64,000 nucleotides of DNA from positions 62,001 through 126,000 of the forward strand of contig BEHV01000001.1 of assembly GCA_002898315.1 (NCBI GenBank), in the 5' to 3' direction. How positions within the stretch are numbered: position 1 is the stretch's first letter; each line of letters opens with the position of its first letter. Shown one piece after another: positions 33,992 to 55,260 of this stretch. The stretch is from a bacterium HR19. Its GTDB lineage: Bacteria; Calescibacteriota; Calescibacteriia; Calescibacteriales; Calescibacteriaceae. The notes under the pieces are model-generated. The model did no database searches. It was not told the DNA's origin and saw only the letters and a program-made list of their open reading frames with translations. The position numbers and the translations under genes were made by a program.

Positions 33992-35512
33992 CTAAAATTG
34001 CTGGTCAACATTGAAAAAACTTTCTGCTTTTCTCATCTGTAAAGCTTCAAGGATATGTTCTGGCTTTATTTTATCACTGTGGTCCAAATCGGCTATTGTG
34101 AGAGCCATTTTGAGAACTCTGAAAACTGCTCTTGCAGAAAGAGAAAACTTCAAAATAGCGTTTTTCATTATCTCCTCACATTTTGAGTCAAGCTTGAAAA
34201 ACTCATTTTGCAAAGATGGGGGAATCTCAGAATTCAAGAAGAAACCGAAGTTCTTAAACCTTCTCATCTGTATTTCACGGACTTCCGCAACAATATCTCT
34301 TAATTTCTCTGTCTCTGATGTATGAGTTTTCTTATTTGACAAAATATCTTCTGGTCCAAGAGCTGGGACTTCAAGATACATATCAAATCTATCAAGGAGA
34401 GGGCCTGATATTTTTGAAATATACTTTTTGATTTGTGCGAAGGTACATCTGCATTCTTTTTTGGGGTTTTTGAAATTACCGCACGGGCAAGGGTTCATAG
34501 CAGAAATAAGCTGGAAACTTGCAGGAAATGAAACAGTTCTTTGAGCGCGAGAAATAGTAACTTTCTTTTCTTCTATGGGTGTTCTCAGTGATTCAAGTGT
34601 CTGCCGTCTGAATTCTGGGAGTTCATCAAGGAAAAGAATTCCTCTATGAGCTAGGGAAACCTCTCCGGGTTTTGGAATAGAACCCCCGCCTATCATTGCG
34701 ACATCTGATATTGTATAGTGTGGGGAACGGAAAGGTCTTACTCTGTGTTCTCTTTTCACTCCCGCAACCGAGTATATTTTCATAACTTCTATCTCCTCAT
34801 CGTCGGTAAGAGTTGGGAGGATTGAGAGGATGGATTTTGCGAGAAGCGTTTTTCCTGCACCCGGAGGTCCTATCATGATAACGTTGTGTCCACCGCACGC
34901 TGAAATCAAAAGCGCCCTTTTTATAAAGTCATGACCTCTTATATCGTCAAATGTCACATCAAAAGCTCTGGGGGGAACTTCTGAAAAGTTCCTGCTCTTC
35001 ACCTCATCAAGATGTCCCGAACCGTTAAGGAAATTCACAAGATTTTTGAGGTGGTCTACATAAAAACCTTTCACGCCTATATACTCTACCTCTGAATTCT
35101 CCTTTGAGATTATAAGCTCTACCGATTTTTCTTTGGCTAAAACCGCAATAGGTATAACACCATTTACACCCTTGACAAATCCATCAAGAGATAGCTCTCC
35201 AATAAAAATAAACTTTTTAGGTAAATATAGCTTTTTCTCGGAAGCTAAAATTCCTATGGCTATTGGGAGGTCATAAATTGACCCTTCTTTCTTTATATCC
35301 GCTGGTGCAAGATTGACAGTTATTCTTTTCAGAGGGAAGTCAAATCCAGAATTTTTTATAGCGCTTTTTACCCTGTCTCTGCTTTCCTTCACAGCAGAGT
35401 CGGGAAGCCCCACAATATTGAAAGAAGGTATGCCGGGAGATATATCCACTTCTACTTCAACCTCGTATGCATCTATTCCAAAGACACCAGCAGAAAAAAC
35501 CTTTGAAACCAT
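33992..35512 (-). CDS. comM: ComM/YifB-family Mg-chelatase-like ATPase
   Basis: The 506-residue protein has the N-terminal ChlI-like domain (EVEVDISPGIPSFNIVGLPD, the VTVNLAPADIKKEG block) and a Lon-like fold. An AAA+ domain follows, with Walker A GPPGAGKT, LFLDELPEF as Walker B, and the four-Cys insertion MNPCPCGN...CRC. ComM is a hexameric helicase that drives branch migration during natural transformation. The start is an ATG seven bases after TAAAAT. Confidence 0.92.
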   Translation of the reverse strand: MVSKVFSAGVFGIDAYEVEVEVDISPGIPSFNIVGLPDSAVKESRDRVKSAIKNSGFDFPLKRITVNLAPADIKKEGSIYDLPIAIGILASEKKLYLPKKFIFIGELSLDGFVKGVNGVIPIAVLAKEKSVELIISKENSEVEYIGVKGFYVDHLKNLVNFLNGSGHLDEVKSRNFSEVPPRAFDVTFDDIRGHDFIKRALLISACGGHNVIMIGPPGAGKTLLAKSILSILPTLTDDEEIEVMKIYSVAGVKREHRVRPFRSPHYTISDVAMIGGGSIPKPGEVSLAHRGILFLDELPEFRRQTLESLRTPIEEKKVTISRAQRTVSFPASFQLISAMNPCPCGNFKNPKKECRCTFAQIKKYISKISGPLLDRFDMYLEVPALGPEDILSNKKTHTSETEKLRDIVAEVREIQMRRFKNFGFFLNSEIPPSLQNEFFKLDSKCEEIMKNAILKFSLSARAVFRVLKMALTIADLDHSDKIKPEHILEALQMRKAESFFNVDQQF

Positions 35513-37824: not shown

Positions 37825-39972
37825 TCATATAAAAAGCGGAGCGAGGACGAGTGTTACAGTAGATAGGAGTTTGATAAGCACATGCAAAGAAGGACCGGCG
37901 GTATCTTTCAAGGGGTCTCCTACGGTATCGCCGACAACCGCTGCCTTATGCTGTTCAGTTCTCTTCTGTCCAGCGGATTCTATTGATTTTTTAGCGTTAT
38001 CCCACGCTGCTCCGCCGTTGTTGAAAACTGTTGCCACAAGTATCCCTGCTATGGTTCCAACCATAAGCAAAGACGCAACAGACTCAGCTCCCAATCCTAC
38101 AAGTTTGAAAATAATTCCTGTAATCGTTGGGACTATAACAGGCAAAAGCCCGGGGATAATCATCTCTTTGAGAGCTCCTTTTGTCACTATATCAACACAA
38201 GTTCCATATTCTGGTTTTTCTGTTCCCTGAAGTATTCCCGGCTTTTCTCGGAACTGTCTTCTTACCTCATTTATGACATAGTATGCAGCTCTTCCTACTG
38301 CTCTTATAGCAAGTCCCGAAAAGAGAAAGACGAGCATAGCACCTATGAGAGCTGCGACAAAAACTTCTGGTTTTGATATATCTACTGCTTTAAGTTCAAC
38401 TCCGTAGTTTCTCACCTCGTCTATGTATGCGCTGAAAAGCAAGAACGCAGCGAGTCCGGCAGAACCTATCGCGTAACCTTTTGTAAGCGCTTTTGTTGTG
38501 TTTCCGACCGCATCTAATTTATCTGTTATTGATCTTACCTCCGCAGGTTGATGGCTCATTTCTGCTATTCCACCAGCGTTATCTGTAATGGGTCCGAATG
38601 TATCCATCGCAAGTATAAACCCTGCGGTTGAGAGCATGCCCATCGTAGCTACTGCGGTTCCAAATAGACCAGCATCTGGAAGACCCGTCGCTCTGCCAAG
38701 ATAGTAAGACGCTATTATTGCTACTCCTATGGCAATTGCCGGAAGCGCGGTGTTCTCAAATCCCACAGATAAACCTGTTATTATATTAGTTGCTGGACCG
38801 GTATAACTTGACTTCACTATCTCTTTCACTGGTCTATATCTATCTTCTGTGTAGTATTGGGTTATAAAGACGAAAGCAACAGATGTGAGAACTCCTATTA
38901 CACCGCAGAGGAAGAAATTTATCCACGCTGTTGGGTAGGAAGGGTGATAGAGGAGCCAGCGGGAGGCGATGAAAAATCCTATCATAGCAAGGAAGACCGA
39001 GACGTAGTATCCTTTGTTCAGAGCACGCATAGGGTCGTCGTCGTTGCTCTTCGCTCTAACAAGCATTATGCCTATTATAGACGCTATTATACCGAATGCA
39101 CGAGCAACAAGAGGGAAAAGCATAACTCCTACAACCCATGAAAGTTCGCTTCCCGCTACTTTTGAAGCCATAGCAGCTCCAAGTATCATCGCACCTATGT
39201 TTTCAGCAGCAGTTGATTCAAAAAGGTCTGCCCCTCTTCCAGCACAATCCCCAACATTATCTCCAACCTGATCTGCTATAACTGCTGGATTTCTCGGATC
39301 ATCTTCCGGTATCCCGGCTTCAACTTTACCAACAAGGTCAGCTCCCACATCTGCTGCCTTTGTGTAAATTCCTCCACCAAGTTGAGCGAAAAGAGCAACA
39401 AAAGAAGCTCCGAAACCATATCCGACTATAAGAAGTGGAATCTTAATCGGGTCAGCTGTTGAAAAGAACTTCATGAGTATAAAAAGTCCGCCTATTCCGA
39501 GTAAGCTCATTGATACGACCATTATTCCCGAGACAGCTCCACCCCTCAGAGCGATTTTTAGGGCATCAGGTAAGCTTCTTCTCGCTGCCGCAGCTGCGAC
39601 CCTTATATTGCTTCTTATGCTTGCCCACATTCCAACATATCCAGCTATCAGAGATGAAATTGCACCAGCTATGAAAGATAGAGCAATCCAGAAGGCAAGC
39701 TCAAGAGCAGAAGCCACAGGGTCAAACTCCTTGTGTCCCCTTATTATGCCGTATCCGACAAAAAGAAGCAATGCAAAAGGTAAAGATATAATTATTATCG
39801 TCTTGTATTGTCTTCGCAGGAAAGCTTCTGCACCTTCTTTTATAGCCAGAGAAATCGCCTGCATCTCTGGACTTCCTGCATCGTGTTTCAAAACCCATCT
39901 TGCAAGAAGAAAAGAAAAAACCACACCCCCTATGCTTACTCCCAAAACTATTGCAAGTAGTCCCCATGTCAT
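37825..39972 (-). CDS. hppA: Membrane H+-pumping pyrophosphatase, K+-independent type
   Basis: The 715-residue protein couples pyrophosphate hydrolysis to proton pumping across the inner membrane. It has about 16 membrane helices and the PPi-binding loop DVGADLVGKVE (208-218). A second acidic loop, DNAGGIAEM, starts near 464, and the C-terminal GDTVGDPLKDTAGP block is intact. Lys494 in GNTTKALTKG marks the K+-independent subfamily, where K+-dependent enzymes have Ala. An AAGGAGG ribosome binding site precedes the ATG. It likely conserves energy from PPi made in biosynthesis. Confidence 0.96.
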   Translation of the reverse strand: MTWGLLAIVLGVSIGGVVFSFLLARWVLKHDAGSPEMQAISLAIKEGAEAFLRRQYKTIIIISLPFALLLFVGYGIIRGHKEFDPVASALELAFWIALSFIAGAISSLIAGYVGMWASIRSNIRVAAAAARRSLPDALKIALRGGAVSGIMVVSMSLLGIGGLFILMKFFSTADPIKIPLLIVGYGFGASFVALFAQLGGGIYTKAADVGADLVGKVEAGIPEDDPRNPAVIADQVGDNVGDCAGRGADLFESTAAENIGAMILGAAMASKVAGSELSWVVGVMLFPLVARAFGIIASIIGIMLVRAKSNDDDPMRALNKGYYVSVFLAMIGFFIASRWLLYHPSYPTAWINFFLCGVIGVLTSVAFVFITQYYTEDRYRPVKEIVKSSYTGPATNIITGLSVGFENTALPAIAIGVAIIASYYLGRATGLPDAGLFGTAVATMGMLSTAGFILAMDTFGPITDNAGGIAEMSHQPAEVRSITDKLDAVGNTTKALTKGYAIGSAGLAAFLLFSAYIDEVRNYGVELKAVDISKPEVFVAALIGAMLVFLFSGLAIRAVGRAAYYVINEVRRQFREKPGILQGTEKPEYGTCVDIVTKGALKEMIIPGLLPVIVPTITGIIFKLVGLGAESVASLLMVGTIAGILVATVFNNGGAAWDNAKKSIESAGQKRTEQHKAAVVGDTVGDPLKDTAGPSLHVLIKLLSTVTLVLAPLFI

Positions 39973-40089
39973 ATCAAGTTTCCTCCTTTTTCAGAAGTCT
40001 AAAAAGCTAAAATGTAGCACAATAAAAAGCGAGCCGAAAAAAATATCTTCTAAATCTAAAAAAACAGAAAAAAAATGCGAAAATTTCAA

Positions 40090-40095
40090 TAAATT
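40090..40095 (+). promoter_or_regulatory. TAAATT box before dgt
   Basis: TAAATT is followed by seven bases and the ATG at 40103. There is no ribosome binding site. Confidence 0.45.
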
Positions 40096-40102
40096 TTTTA
40101 AG

Positions 40103-41140
40103 ATGGGAAAAAACCCAAGAGAGATAAGAGAGGAATTGGAAGAAAAAATTCTTTCCGAAATAGCCACACCGAGCTCAAAATCAAGAGGCAGAAAAATTCC
40201 CGAAGAGCCATGCGAAATAAGAACCTGCTTTCAGGTTGATAGAGATAGAATACTGCATTCAAAGTCATTCAGAAGGTTGAAGAGAAAGACACAGGTTCTG
40301 ATATTGCCAAAGGGAGACCATTACAGGACTCGGCTGACACACACATTAGAAGTTATGCAGATTTCAAGAACGATAGCGAGAGCGCTCATGCTTAATGAAG
40401 ACCTCGCGGAAGCCATTGCTCTTGGGCACGACCTCGGACATACCCCTTTCGGACACGCAGGAGAATTCGCTATGAGAAAAATCATTCCAGATTTCCACCA
40501 CGCTAAACAATCTGTAAGAGTCGTAGAAAAAATAGAAAAAGATGGAAAAGGTTTAAACTTGACTTTTGAAGTTATAGATGGTATCCTCAAACACTCAAAA
40601 GGTATGGGGAAAATTTTTCCCGATAATCCCGAATTCATTCCGGTCACCGCCGAAGGAAAAGTTGTAAGAGTAAGCGATATTATAGCTTACCTCAATCATG
40701 ATTTAGATGATGCAATAAGAGCGCAAATAATAAAACCACAGGATATCCCAAAAGAAATAACAAAGATAATAGGAGAATCATACGGCGAGAGAATAGACAG
40801 AATGGTGAAAGATGTTATAAACTCATCAAAAGAAAAAGGTGATATTTCGGTTTCTTCTGACATGCTCTGGGCTATGGAAGAACTGAGAACATTCCTCTAC
40901 GAAAGAGTTTATACCTCACCTCATGTTATGAAAGAAACAGCAAAAGTTGAAAGAGTAATCCTTGACCTTTATGAATACTATATTTCACATCCGCATATTT
41001 TTGAAGAAGATAGCGAAGGATTCTTAACAGATGAAAGTTTTGAACAGAGGGTTATTGATTTTATAGCGGGTATGACAGATAGCTTCGCTATTGAGATGTG
41101 GAGCAAAAAGTTTTTACCCAAACCCTTTGACAAAATCTGA
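40103..41140 (+). CDS. dgt: dGTP triphosphohydrolase-like HD protein
   Basis: The 345-residue protein has the HD-domain metal ligands in the order typical of dGTPases: RLTHTLEVMQ, GHDLGHTPFGHAGE and the later Asp in YLNHDLDD. The N-terminal block with a conserved DRDRILHSKSFRRLKRKTQV is characteristic of the short, non-proteobacterial Dgt group. It hydrolyses dNTPs to nucleosides and triphosphate. The chosen ATG removes a long, low-quality N-terminal extension that would read antisense through hppA. Confidence 0.88.
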   Translation: MGKNPREIREELEEKILSEIATPSSKSRGRKIPEEPCEIRTCFQVDRDRILHSKSFRRLKRKTQVLILPKGDHYRTRLTHTLEVMQISRTIARALMLNEDLAEAIALGHDLGHTPFGHAGEFAMRKIIPDFHHAKQSVRVVEKIEKDGKGLNLTFEVIDGILKHSKGMGKIFPDNPEFIPVTAEGKVVRVSDIIAYLNHDLDDAIRAQIIKPQDIPKEITKIIGESYGERIDRMVKDVINSSKEKGDISVSSDMLWAMEELRTFLYERVYTSPHVMKETAKVERVILDLYEYYISHPHIFEEDSEGFLTDESFEQRVIDFIAGMTDSFAIEMWSKKFLPKPFDKI

Positions 41141-50968: not shown

Positions 50969-52180
50969 ATGAACGAGGCAGAAAATGAAAAGAAAAAATC
51001 AGAGAGAAAAAAGCTTTACGAACTGATAAAATTAACCCTATCAGTAGCCATAGGTATAATCATAGGCATCGCAATAACTAAGTGTCCTGAAAAAAAAACT
51101 GAAAGATGGGAAGAAAAGAAGGAGGTAAAAACAGAAGAAAAAGCTGTGGAGAAAAAATTAAAATCACAACAAGAAGAAAAACAGAAGAGTAAAGTTATAG
51201 TACTTCACGAAGGCGAAGTACAAAAGGAGGTATTTGAAAAATCAGCAACAGAACAGGTTTACCCTGAAAAACCAACTTGCTACGACTTCGGATTTCAACC
51301 GACCTTTATCACCAAACCAGAAAAATACTGGAATAGAAACTATGCAGAATTTGTTTTTGCTCCCGGAATAACTTTTTCCTGTAAAATATTAGATTACTCA
51401 ATTCCTTGCCCCGCCATATCTTCAAGAATATTCATAGAGTTTAAAGAAGACGGAGAGAAAAAATTTGAAGTATATTTTGAAGATGGGAGTTGCAGAAGAA
51501 AAATATTAGATTACAACTTCATCGTAGATACATATCCACCAAAAACAACTATCGTTCCAGTAGGTTTCTCTGAAATCACCACAGCTCCTGAGGCAATGTT
51601 TGAACTTCTGACAAGTGAGCCGGTAAAATATACTCTGTGCAAGGTTGATGATGGTTTCTGGTTTGAGTGCTCAAGCTCTAAATTCTATCTGACAAGTATA
51701 GAGGATGGAGAACATAAAATAGAAGCGTTCTCCGAAGATTTAGCAGGAAACATGGAAAAGCCCCCCGCTCAGCTCACTTTCACCGTAGATGCTAAACCAC
51801 CAATCACAATACTTCTTTCCGCTCCTCCAAGTATAACAAACACAAACTATGCAGAGTTCATCTTCACAGCAGATGAAGAAAAAGGAATAAAATTTGAGTG
51901 CAACCTCAACTCATCGGGATGGCTCCCCTGTGATGAACTTTTTGTTATATCAGAAGCTAAACAAGGAATCAACACACTTGAGATAAGAGCAATTGATAGG
52001 TTCGGTCGCTACGAAGAAAAACCTGTAAAATACTCTTGGCAGGTCGTCAAAGGAAATATAATAGGAATCCCCAAACCATACTCTACCCCCGATGAACTAT
52101 TAGAACTTCTCAAAAGAAGAAGAAACATAAACGATATTGGAAAATTTATTCAAAATCTCAAAAACAGAAAAACAAGATGA
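50969..52180 (+). CDS. Membrane-anchored protein with three Ig-like repeats
   Basis: The protein of 403 residues has a short cytoplasmic N-terminus, one membrane helix (about 21-43), a Lys/Glu-rich linker and three beta-sandwich repeats. Repeats two and three share the pattern of paired Cys around a Trp or Phe, an 'EGxHxIEAxxxDxxGN' strand and a PPxT start. Such repeats are common in surface proteins, so it should face the periplasm. GGGGGTGAT precedes the ATG. It overlaps the Cas4-like gene by four bases, so the two are co-expressed. Confidence 0.75.
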   Translation: MNEAENEKKKSERKKLYELIKLTLSVAIGIIIGIAITKCPEKKTERWEEKKEVKTEEKAVEKKLKSQQEEKQKSKVIVLHEGEVQKEVFEKSATEQVYPEKPTCYDFGFQPTFITKPEKYWNRNYAEFVFAPGITFSCKILDYSIPCPAISSRIFIEFKEDGEKKFEVYFEDGSCRRKILDYNFIVDTYPPKTTIVPVGFSEITTAPEAMFELLTSEPVKYTLCKVDDGFWFECSSSKFYLTSIEDGEHKIEAFSEDLAGNMEKPPAQLTFTVDAKPPITILLSAPPSITNTNYAEFIFTADEEKGIKFECNLNSSGWLPCDELFVISEAKQGINTLEIRAIDRFGRYEEKPVKYSWQVVKGNIIGIPKPYSTPDELLELLKRRRNINDIGKFIQNLKNRKTR

Positions 52181-52893
52181 GAGAAAGAACCAAAAATGAA
52201 AAGACAATTCTTTACCGCATACATGAAAGATTTTCACAAATATCAAACTTTGCCATAAAAAACAAAATACCAAGAATTTTCGTCTCTGACATATCCTCCT
52301 CTCTTTTTTGCGAATGGAGAAAAATTCTTGAGATAAAGCACGGCAAACCAGAAACAGAAGAGATGATCTTAGGGACAAAAATCCACGAAGAATACTTCGC
52401 ATACGAACTTGAAAGCATAGATGAATTAGAAAAAATTATATCAAGGGGAGAAACAATCGGACTAACAACAAAAGTTGGATTTATATGGGAAGAAAAAAAT
52501 CAAGATTTCAAAGTTATGATATCGGGAGAACCAGACCTTATGATCTTCTCGGAGAGAAAGTTAAAGAAAATCGTTGAACTGAAAACAAGAAGAACCTATG
52601 ACATTTTCTCATCAGATATACTTCAACTCGGAATATATGCGCTCTGTATTGAAAAAATGACAGGAGAAAACCTGAAAGACCTACAGCTTGAAATAAGAGT
52701 AAAAGTTGTATCAGACAACTTGAAAGAGTTCTCCCGAAACTTCTACTACAAAGATATAAGAGACGGGATTTTAGACGAACTGAAAAGTTCTCTTGATTTC
52801 TGGCTCGGGAAAAGAGACCCCAAAATCCCGACATCAAAAAACATCTGCCTTTCGTGCTATTTCAGAGAAATCTGCGACAGAAAACTTGTCTGA
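52177..52893 (+). CDS. Cas4/AddB-like nuclease with Fe-S cluster
   Basis: The 238-residue protein has the RecB-type PD-(D/E)XK core: His70 (GTKIHEE), GEPD with Asp120, ELK at 134-136 and a QxxxY-like LQLGIYALC helix from 150. Four Cys (45, 224, 227, 233) in the Cas4 spacing probably hold a [4Fe-4S] cluster. Cas4-type enzymes resect DNA ends or trim CRISPR spacers, but no CRISPR array or other cas gene is here. It is coupled by ATGA overlap to an Ig-like membrane protein, an unusual pairing. A DNA-repair role is possible. Confidence 0.82.
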   Translation: MRERTKNEKTILYRIHERFSQISNFAIKNKIPRIFVSDISSSLFCEWRKILEIKHGKPETEEMILGTKIHEEYFAYELESIDELEKIISRGETIGLTTKVGFIWEEKNQDFKVMISGEPDLMIFSERKLKKIVELKTRRTYDIFSSDILQLGIYALCIEKMTGENLKDLQLEIRVKVVSDNLKEFSRNFYYKDIRDGILDELKSSLDFWLGKRDPKIPTSKNICLSCYFREICDRKLV

Positions 52894-52973: not shown

Positions 52974-54101
52974 ATGAAAAAGTATCAAAAAAGCGTGAGA
53001 TTTTTTTTCAAACTCCTCATAAGTGGAATCTTCATACTCTCCTTTTCAAAGTTAAGTCATATCTACGCTATTGAGATAAGTTTGCGAGGTAATTCACTTT
53101 TCAGCGCTTTCACAGGAAAAAACAATATGTTTATGTTTTCTATAAGAAATCTTGAACTTTCAGCAAGCGGGGGAAGAGGATTTTTGTTCGCAAAAGGAGA
53201 ACTTGATATTCAACCCATCAATCTTTCCTTCTTCACAGATGCTATTGAGAAAAAAAATAGCGAGATGCAAGATTTTTTGACATCACAGGTAGCAGGAAGA
53301 GAGTTCTTCAGAGCAAAAGAGGTTTATGTTTCAACTCGTGGTCTTCCATTTTTCAGAATAACATTAGGAAGGTTCTACGGGGCGGTCGGAAATGCCAATT
53401 CGCAGAAATTCTGGATAAGAAACTTTGTTGAAAGACCTTTCACAGTAAGATATTTTTTTGGTCAGAACGGATTTTTAGACGATGGACTTGAAATCTCTCT
53501 TTTTCCACCTTTACCGTGGACATTTGAAATAGTAGGACAGATTTTTGATGGGAGTGTAAAATCGTGGGCGAGCAAAGGAAGCTTTGACCTAACATATCTT
53601 CTCGCAATAAGGAACTACTTCGGTGAGGAGGATATATCAGGAGGTTTCAGCTTGTTCTGGGCAGTTGGGAAAAATTTTGCATCTCAGCGACTTGTCGCAA
53701 AAGGCACTCATATAGCATCAGATAACCTCTCGGAATTCTTTGGCGGAGATGCGTCTTTTAATTTCCAACCATACTTCTCAATGAATGTAGGATACATTCT
53801 GAGAAGATTCCAAAGCCCAACAATACTTGATGTTGAAGCCGGGTTATACTCTGAATTCAATGTAAATCCCGTAAGATTCTTCTCTGTTGGATTGAGACCT
53901 GAAATATTCGGTATTCCACGCATCAGAGAATTTGAAGAAGGTGGCTCTCAAAACCTACCGCAGATATTTGAACTATCTATATCTGCGACATTCTCCGCTT
54001 ATGAAATCGCAAAAATAAGGTTGCAGTGGACAGGAAACTTCTCAGAGGCATCATTACCGCAAAACATTTTTTATTTGCAAACAATGTTTGAACTACGCTA
54101 A
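52974..54101 (+). CDS. Putative outer-membrane beta-barrel protein
   Basis: The 375-residue protein has a signal peptide (about 8-32, cut after IYA) and then alternating hydrophobic/polar strands rich in Phe, Gly and aromatic pairs, ending in FELR. That pattern suggests a porin-like barrel of about 14-16 strands. I do not recognise the family. A TAAAAT box lies ten bases before the ATG. The TroA-like gene follows after 40 bases with its own promoter-like box. Confidence 0.6.
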   Translation: MKKYQKSVRFFFKLLISGIFILSFSKLSHIYAIEISLRGNSLFSAFTGKNNMFMFSIRNLELSASGGRGFLFAKGELDIQPINLSFFTDAIEKKNSEMQDFLTSQVAGREFFRAKEVYVSTRGLPFFRITLGRFYGAVGNANSQKFWIRNFVERPFTVRYFFGQNGFLDDGLEISLFPPLPWTFEIVGQIFDGSVKSWASKGSFDLTYLLAIRNYFGEEDISGGFSLFWAVGKNFASQRLVAKGTHIASDNLSEFFGGDASFNFQPYFSMNVGYILRRFQSPTILDVEAGLYSEFNVNPVRFFSVGLRPEIFGIPRIREFEEGGSQNLPQIFELSISATFSAYEIAKIRLQWTGNFSEASLPQNIFYLQTMFELR

Positions 54102-54141: not shown

Positions 54142-55260
54142 ATGAATTTAGTAGCAACATTTCTGATTTCGGTCGTAGTTGTGACTTCAAACTACGACCT
54201 ATATTACATAGCTTCACGTGTTGCAGACCCCTCTGTTGAAATATACTACCTCGTAGATGAATCACAAGAAGATGGTATAAACTTTCAGATTCAGGATTTT
54301 CACATCAGGTTGCTCAACCGTGCAGATATATTTATTCATACGGGAACATTTGAGAGAAGATGGCTTCAGCAGGCGCTCTGGTCTGCCAGAAACCCAAAAA
54401 TCCTTGAAGGAAAAGAAGGACATATTGATATATCAAAATACATAGATGTAAAAAATGGTTCAAACTGCTTTATATTCAACAAAGAATACATCAAAAGAGT
54501 TGCAGCTATCCTCTCAGGTTTCATAAGAAAACTATCTCCCGATTTTTCAGCAGAGTTTTACGAAAAGAGGCTTTCGGAGTTTTACGCAGAAGTTGATGAG
54601 TATTTTTTTGCACTTCAAACAACAATATCAAGCTATATGCTCCCAAAATTTGCCATCTACTCCCCATGCCTGAAATATCTTTCAGACAGCATGAACTTAA
54701 AGTATGACCTCATTGTGAAAAAAAATGAAGACGAGGTCTTCACCTACGGGCTTGCCCGAGATTCATCAGAGGTTATGAAGAGAATGAACCTTCCTCTCCT
54801 TCTTGCTCCTCACAACATAGAAAGAAGCGCAGAGATAGGATTTATGTCAGCAGAAATCTTCGTCTTGAAAATACCGTCACACCTTGGCAAAAAATACCCA
54901 AACCTCAAATCAATAGTCAATGGTATAACCTTCATAGGAGATATAGAAAAATTAAGAGGTCTTCAAGAGAAAGAAAAAGAAAAGGAAGGAATTATAAAGA
55001 AGGAGGAGAAAAAACCTGCCGAGATAACGAGCATTCCACCAGAAACTCCTCCCGCCCCTCTTGAAGAGTATGCTGTTGTCACATCAAAATACACAAGTAT
55101 AATTTTGAGAGATAGACCTTCTGAACAAGCCGGACAAGCTGGAAAAATAGCCGGTGGGTCAAGGGTTCTGGTCCTTGAAAAGCAAAACGAATGGGTGAAA
55201 ATAACAGATGGAAAAAACATCGGGTGGGTGAGAATAAGCGTCCTCACATTTGAAAAATAA
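54142..55260 (+). CDS. TroA/ZnuA-like domain fused to bacterial SH3
   Basis: The 372-residue protein starts with a signal-like helix (about 1-15). Residues of about 15-275 resemble the metal-binding TroA/ZnuA fold (FLISVVVVTSNYDL, RADIFIHTGTFERRWL, the long KRLSEFYAEVDEYF helix, SPCLKYLSDSMNL). The usual DPHxYEP metal loop is replaced by NFQIQDFHIR, so metal binding is uncertain. A Lys/Glu/Pro linker (about 278-315) leads to an SH3b domain (about 318-370) with VLEKQNEWVKITDGKNIGWV, as in cell-wall binding proteins. No ABC partner is near. It overlaps pth by one base. Confidence 0.72.
   Translation: MNLVATFLISVVVVTSNYDLYYIASRVADPSVEIYYLVDESQEDGINFQIQDFHIRLLNRADIFIHTGTFERRWLQQALWSARNPKILEGKEGHIDISKYIDVKNGSNCFIFNKEYIKRVAAILSGFIRKLSPDFSAEFYEKRLSEFYAEVDEYFFALQTTISSYMLPKFAIYSPCLKYLSDSMNLKYDLIVKKNEDEVFTYGLARDSSEVMKRMNLPLLLAPHNIERSAEIGFMSAEIFVLKIPSHLGKKYPNLKSIVNGITFIGDIEKLRGLQEKEKEKEGIIKKEEKKPAEITSIPPETPPAPLEEYAVVTSKYTSIILRDRPSEQAGQAGKIAGGSRVLVLEKQNEWVKITDGKNIGWVRISVLTFEK

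Follow-up and report, generated by a model that had tools for sequence, protein, structure and literature searches.

The locus and its question

At one point in the genome of bacterium HR19, the gene of a nuclease with Cas4-like motifs overlaps the gene of a membrane protein with Ig-like repeats. Do the two products form a functional unit? A sequence-only reading of this DNA had implied that they do, possibly in DNA uptake, in defence or at the envelope. We analysed the locus within a stretch of 64,000 nucleotides, hereafter the window, and compared it across the five genomes available for the family. These are the source genome (G000; 22 draft contigs totalling 1.88 Mb, at 82% completeness), the sister species G002, the more distant genus member G001, and G003 and G004 from two other genera. 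All five are drafts of 82-86% completeness, and the other relatives in our collection share only the domain with them. Both genes were recovered as read before, as open reading frames at 50969-52180 and 52177-52893 with a common ATGA. The features of the locus are as follows:

50969-52180, + strand: P0001, Ig-repeat protein with membrane anchor, 403 aa from ATG (open reading frame, model matches, repeats)
51014-51088, + strand: predicted sole membrane helix of P0001, about residues 16-40, with positive charges ahead (hydropathy, alignment)
51278-51538, + strand: Ig-like repeat 1 of P0001, residues 104-190 (repeat alignment)
51539-51796, + strand: Ig-like repeat 2 of P0001, residues 191-276, site of weak Big_13 and OmpL47-type matches
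51797-52054, + strand: Ig-like repeat 3 of P0001, residues 277-362 (repeat alignment)
52177-52180, + strand: ATGA start/stop overlap common to both genes, absent in the sister species
52177-52893, + strand: P0002, stand-alone Cas4/Exo5-like PD-(D/E)XK nuclease, putative Fe-S protein, 238 aa
52309-52311, + strand: C45 of P0002, first putative cluster cysteine, motif CEWRK (invariant in 5/5)
52384-52386, + strand: H70 of P0002, predicted active site (invariant in 5/5)
52534-52584, + strand: D120, E134 and K136 of P0002 (D ... E-x-K), predicted active site (invariant in 5/5)
52846-52875, + strand: C224, C227 and C233 of P0002 (CxxCxxxxxC), putative cluster (C233 in 4/5)

P0001 is predicted to be an anchored Ig-repeat protein

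Hydropathy of P0001 exceeds 1.6 in 19-residue windows starting at residues 16-22, and beyond residue 60 no such window exceeds 1.04. Lysines and arginines precede this N-terminal hydrophobic helix. The three repeats align pairwise with scores of 60, 60 and 55, compared to maxima of 53, 53 and 42 among 300 shuffles each. Hydropathy and repeat scores thus bear out the architecture of one membrane helix and three Ig-like repeats. Judged by the lipobox rule from the residue before the cysteine, P0001 does not read as a lipoprotein, since a lysine precedes C39. Two models of surface repeats matched below their cut-offs, i.e., PF19077 (Big_13; 19.6 bits against 27 in Pfam) and NF047446 (OmpL47-type; 30.8 bits against 40 in NCBIfam). 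P0001 would be an envelope protein separate from the nuclease, anchored by its single N-terminal helix, with the three repeats lying beyond the cytoplasmic membrane.

Long homologues of P0001 occur in all five family genomes, with second copies on contig 4 of G000 and contig 60 of G002; the G000 second copy has no adjoining nuclease. A seven-row tree of the Ig family left both the G003 copy and the G004 copy as possible partners of the window copy (support 75/81).

P0002 appears to sit between Exo5 and Cas4

P0002 shows the pattern of Cas4/Exo5/AddB-type nucleases, namely the PD-(D/E)XK motifs together with one N-terminal and three C-terminal cysteines. H70, D120, E134, K136, Q150, Y154, C45, C224 and C227 are invariant in all five family members, and C233 is kept in four, the fifth having ambiguous bases at that site. 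This conservation upholds the nuclease and four-cysteine pattern noticed earlier.

In Pfam hmmscan, P0002 scored over the cut-offs of Exo5 (PF09810; 37 bits against 25) and PDDEXK_1 (PF12705; 30.5 bits against 22), although the Exo5 match came in separate pieces, the best of them covering positions 12-54 of the 367-position model. It stayed under both curated cut-offs for Cas4, i.e., PF01930 (17.2 bits against 22.7 in Pfam) and TIGR00372 (37.5 bits against 65 in NCBIfam). PADLOC, whose library lists no cut-offs, ranked Cas4 models first (best E 5.6e-10), and in PHROGs the protein matched phrog_1706, annotated 'CRISPR/Cas system associated' (E 7.3e-9). "Cas4-like" is therefore apt in the loose sense of the motifs but not in the strict sense of the models. 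A profile built from the five family nucleases found Exonuclease V (7lwa/7lw7) as its best, weak match among solved structures (E 0.007), while the Cas4 structure 8d3l followed at E 0.13. Structure models of both proteins, computed from two-row alignments, had mean pLDDT values of 36.4 and 32.9 and were unusable, so the fold assignment of P0002 rests on sequence. Taken together, the motifs and scores would place P0002 between Exo5 and Cas4, near the pfam12705 Cas4-like proteins.

Two other interpretations were discarded. Calcineurin appeared as a relative of P0002 solely through chance matches of a single-sequence PDB search. Furthermore, empty genome searches with PF12705 and PF01930 might have suggested that P0002 is of neither kind; these searches missed P0002 itself, which passes PF12705 in hmmscan, and their negative results therefore carry little weight.

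The nuclease is present throughout the sampled family

At E <= 1e-6, the nuclease was found in 8 of 386 genomes, comprising the five of the family and three of one other family. A profile from these three distant nucleases aligned to that of the window nuclease with an hhalign probability of 97.5%. Scanning the genome collection with P0002 itself matched the sister species G002 alone, and no relative was detected in viral contigs or phages. The sister species G000 and G002 stand at 90-94% protein identity; for the two genes dS is 0.33-0.35, and both evolve under purifying selection (omega 0.149 and 0.096). Their GC contents of 0.366 and 0.353 match those of the window genes (mean 0.365, sd 0.028), and thus neither gene bears a sign of recent import.

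The two genes adjoin in two sister species

Adjacency of the Ig and nuclease genes was observed in G000 and G002 and was lost in G003 and G004; in G001, the contig breaks off early in the nuclease gene. In G002 the genes adjoin but do not overlap, as a one-base length difference places the nuclease start 6 bases past the Ig stop. The G003 nuclease gene lies between a 182-aa gene and the genes of SpoIID and then ComM, all on one strand, whereas that of G004 is flanked by opposite-strand genes with a TatD-type DNase upstream; in both genomes the Ig gene lies within another contig. The only long Ig homologue of G001 is likewise found on another contig among other neighbours, and the coaD region, which in the window lies upstream of the Ig gene, contains neither gene in G001.

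Nothing sets the ATGA overlap apart, since among 37 pairs of same-strand neighbours in the window 3 overlap by exactly four bases and 17 lie within 50 bases. These counts refer to 54 hand-chosen window genes, without the gene at 39473-41140 (HD domain), which would add one gapped same-strand pair. The spacing in the two species, a 4-base overlap or a 6-base gap, would give coordinated expression of both genes. A literature search found no report of an operon of a Cas4-like nuclease and an Ig-like protein. The pairing looks ordinary rather than like a new system, because other relatives carry both genes far apart. It is probably a local arrangement, operon-like in two sister species, and nothing we found points to a joint function. 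Measured by the condition set in the earlier reading, conservation in no related genome, the pairing is not strictly refuted, as G002 keeps it. It fails beyond this closest relative, however, since two other genera of the family carry the genes apart, and the implied functional partnership is not supported.

Surroundings of the locus

Among 26 window proteins searched with Pfam (MnmE being named by NCBIfam), no cas or recombination gene lies next to the pair, in agreement with the earlier reading. Within about 10 kb we found an Ogg-type glycosylase, an MlaE permease, a secretin, FliD and a PKD-repeat protein. The window gene at 33992-35512 carries the Mg_chelatase and ChlI Pfam domains, an architecture that we take to be ComM, and ComEC is present in all five family genomes (in G000 on contig 9). 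Competence functions are thus encoded, as had been noted, but neither gene is near the pair, and we found nothing that links the pair to DNA uptake. The one exception concerns the nuclease alone, which in G003 forms a tight same-strand run with SpoIID-like and ComM-like genes (L042:6977-10641).

Downstream of the nuclease, the gene at 52974-54101 encodes a 375-aa protein without a significant Pfam or any NCBIfam match, which is present in all five family genomes, the four homologues outside G000 being 55-94% identical to it; we have the impression, and only that, of a beta-barrel outer membrane protein. The product of the gene at 54142-55260 joins a ZnuA-like metal-binding domain to a bacterial SH3 domain at its C-terminus, and this gene is found downstream of the nuclease in G001 too.

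The cas loci of relatives carry a different Cas4

Cas1 was detected in G001, G002 and G004, each with a Cas4 of its own, while a search of the five family genomes did not find it in G000 and G003. A Cas4 gene of 168-174 aa precedes Cas1 in G002, in G004 (C38) and at one G001 locus. Another G001 Cas1 locus (L056) has different Cas4-like neighbours, and a further Cas1 fragment lies at a contig end of G004 (L057). The profile of the cas-locus Cas4 aligned to that of the window nuclease with an hhalign probability of just 15%. This poor alignment argues that the P0002 family is a second, CRISPR-independent protein.

Weighing the possible roles

Could P0002 still be an adaptation Cas4 displaced from its cas locus? 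The TIGR00372 and PADLOC Cas4 models do match over residues 36-233, and three relatives carry Cas1. However, P0002 scores below both curated cut-offs, is not found beside cas1 or cas2, and also occurs in both genomes without detected Cas1, while the relatives' cas loci have their dedicated, different Cas4. We consider such a displacement highly improbable. Equally remote, to our judgement, is a functional unit in which P0001 would bind DNA or contact phages or surfaces outside the cell and the nuclease would process the incoming DNA in uptake or defence. The overlap in the window, the close spacing in the sister species, purifying selection on both genes, ComEC throughout the family with ComM in the window, and the SpoIID-ComM run behind the G003 nuclease all fit this idea. 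Against it, the genes lie apart in G003 and G004 although both are present, the second Ig copy is unpaired, PADLOC gave no match for P0001, viral contigs and phages hold no relative of the nuclease, and SpoIID and ComM accompany the nuclease in just one genome.

The nuclease might instead belong with its downstream neighbours, the envelope-like 52974 gene and the ZnuA-like/SH3 54142 gene, in a mixed housekeeping and envelope transcript that excludes the Ig gene. In G001, the same two genes follow the nuclease (58-70% identity), which shows the downstream part of the neighbourhood to predate the Ig part. Yet the 52974 homologue lies elsewhere in G003 and G004, and the products share no evident common process, which makes this grouping unlikely. 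We thus favour P0002 as a stand-alone nuclease of the Cas4/Exo5/AddB kind, most likely with a cytoplasmic role at DNA ends that is independent of both CRISPR and the Ig protein.

As such, P0002 would be a soluble cytoplasmic protein with a putative four-cysteine Fe-S cluster, acting as a metal-dependent exonuclease that trims DNA ends in repair or recombination. The repair role is drawn from the protein family, as no DNA-repair gene is a conserved neighbour. The proposed mechanism follows by analogy the Cas4-family protein Sso0001 of Sulfolobus, an Fe-S cluster protein described as an exonuclease that degrades single strands from 5' to 3' and for which a role in strand resection was proposed (PMC3466216). 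In the five draft genomes, neither PF12705 nucleases of the RecB/AddB kind nor an ordinary UvrD/RecB/AddA-type helicase was detected (UvrD control positive in 13 of 14). These absences make a resection role of P0002 attractive, as a lead only: the AddB/RecB result is weak evidence because the genomes are incomplete and the PF12705 search missed P0002 itself. That P0002 is the principal enzyme of its lineage for processing double-strand DNA ends, in recombination and DNA uptake, seems to us quite doubtful.

A nuclease and a surface protein that looked like a candidate system can thus be struck off, as their pairing is local and not kept in other genera. What is left is a Cas4/Exo5-like nuclease that belongs to the core of its lineage, within a bacterial group of which few genomes are sampled. 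For stand-alone nucleases of this type the roles are unsettled, and P0002 would offer a clean case in which to test a CRISPR-independent one, since all five family genomes have it, whether or not Cas1 was detected in them.

Related systems and comparison with known proteins

Several related loci were observed in passing. In three genera of one other family, a trio is conserved (L096:659-4118 in G304, L097:4842-8225 in G017 and L098:4539-7799 in G165), in which a Cas4-like nuclease gene (265-275 aa) overlaps that of a 628-673 aa AAA/STAND-like ATPase, with a 210-221 aa gene ahead of them. Winged-helix models weakly matched the 210-221 aa product in two of these genomes, and a LexA gene adjoins in G304. 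We regard this trio as a better candidate system than the pair of the window. The Exonuclease V family is known mainly from eukaryotes. Full-length-looking members were found in one bacterial genus, in G267 (L077, L089, L090) and G131 (L078, L088, L091), with three collinear pieces (best 104.5 bits) in open frames of 323-392 aa. Lastly, helicases of about 1580 aa with an MTES_1575 nuclease domain (L095:2487-7238 in G001 and L094:1-4734 in G002) resemble the anti-phage proteins ProA and Hhe, below the respective cut-offs, and are the only UvrD-model matches of the family (2/5 genomes).

Compared to the OmpL47-type/Big_13 surface repeats, P0001 likewise has repeats of ~85 residues with paired cysteines, but it stays under both cut-offs and carries just three repeats on a single-helix anchor. 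P0002 shares with Exo5 the E-L-K-T-R around the ExK motif and a G-x-R-E-P ahead of the last three cysteines. At 238 aa it is much shorter, however, than the 367-position model, which it matches piecewise, and searching the genomes with Exo5 gave matches below the cut-off for three other family members and none for G001. The pfam12705 Cas4-like proteins are reported in a 2017 survey not to be associated with CRISPR-Cas (Hudaiberdiev et al., PMC5704561). Like the solo-Cas4/pfam12705 nucleases described there, P0002 is small, combines catalytic motifs with four cysteines, lies outside CRISPR loci, appears lineage-inherited and passes the pfam12705 cut-off. Unlike the pfam12705 cases in that survey, which have a helicase partner or a phage context, P0002 has neither, and it falls under the Cas4 cut-offs.
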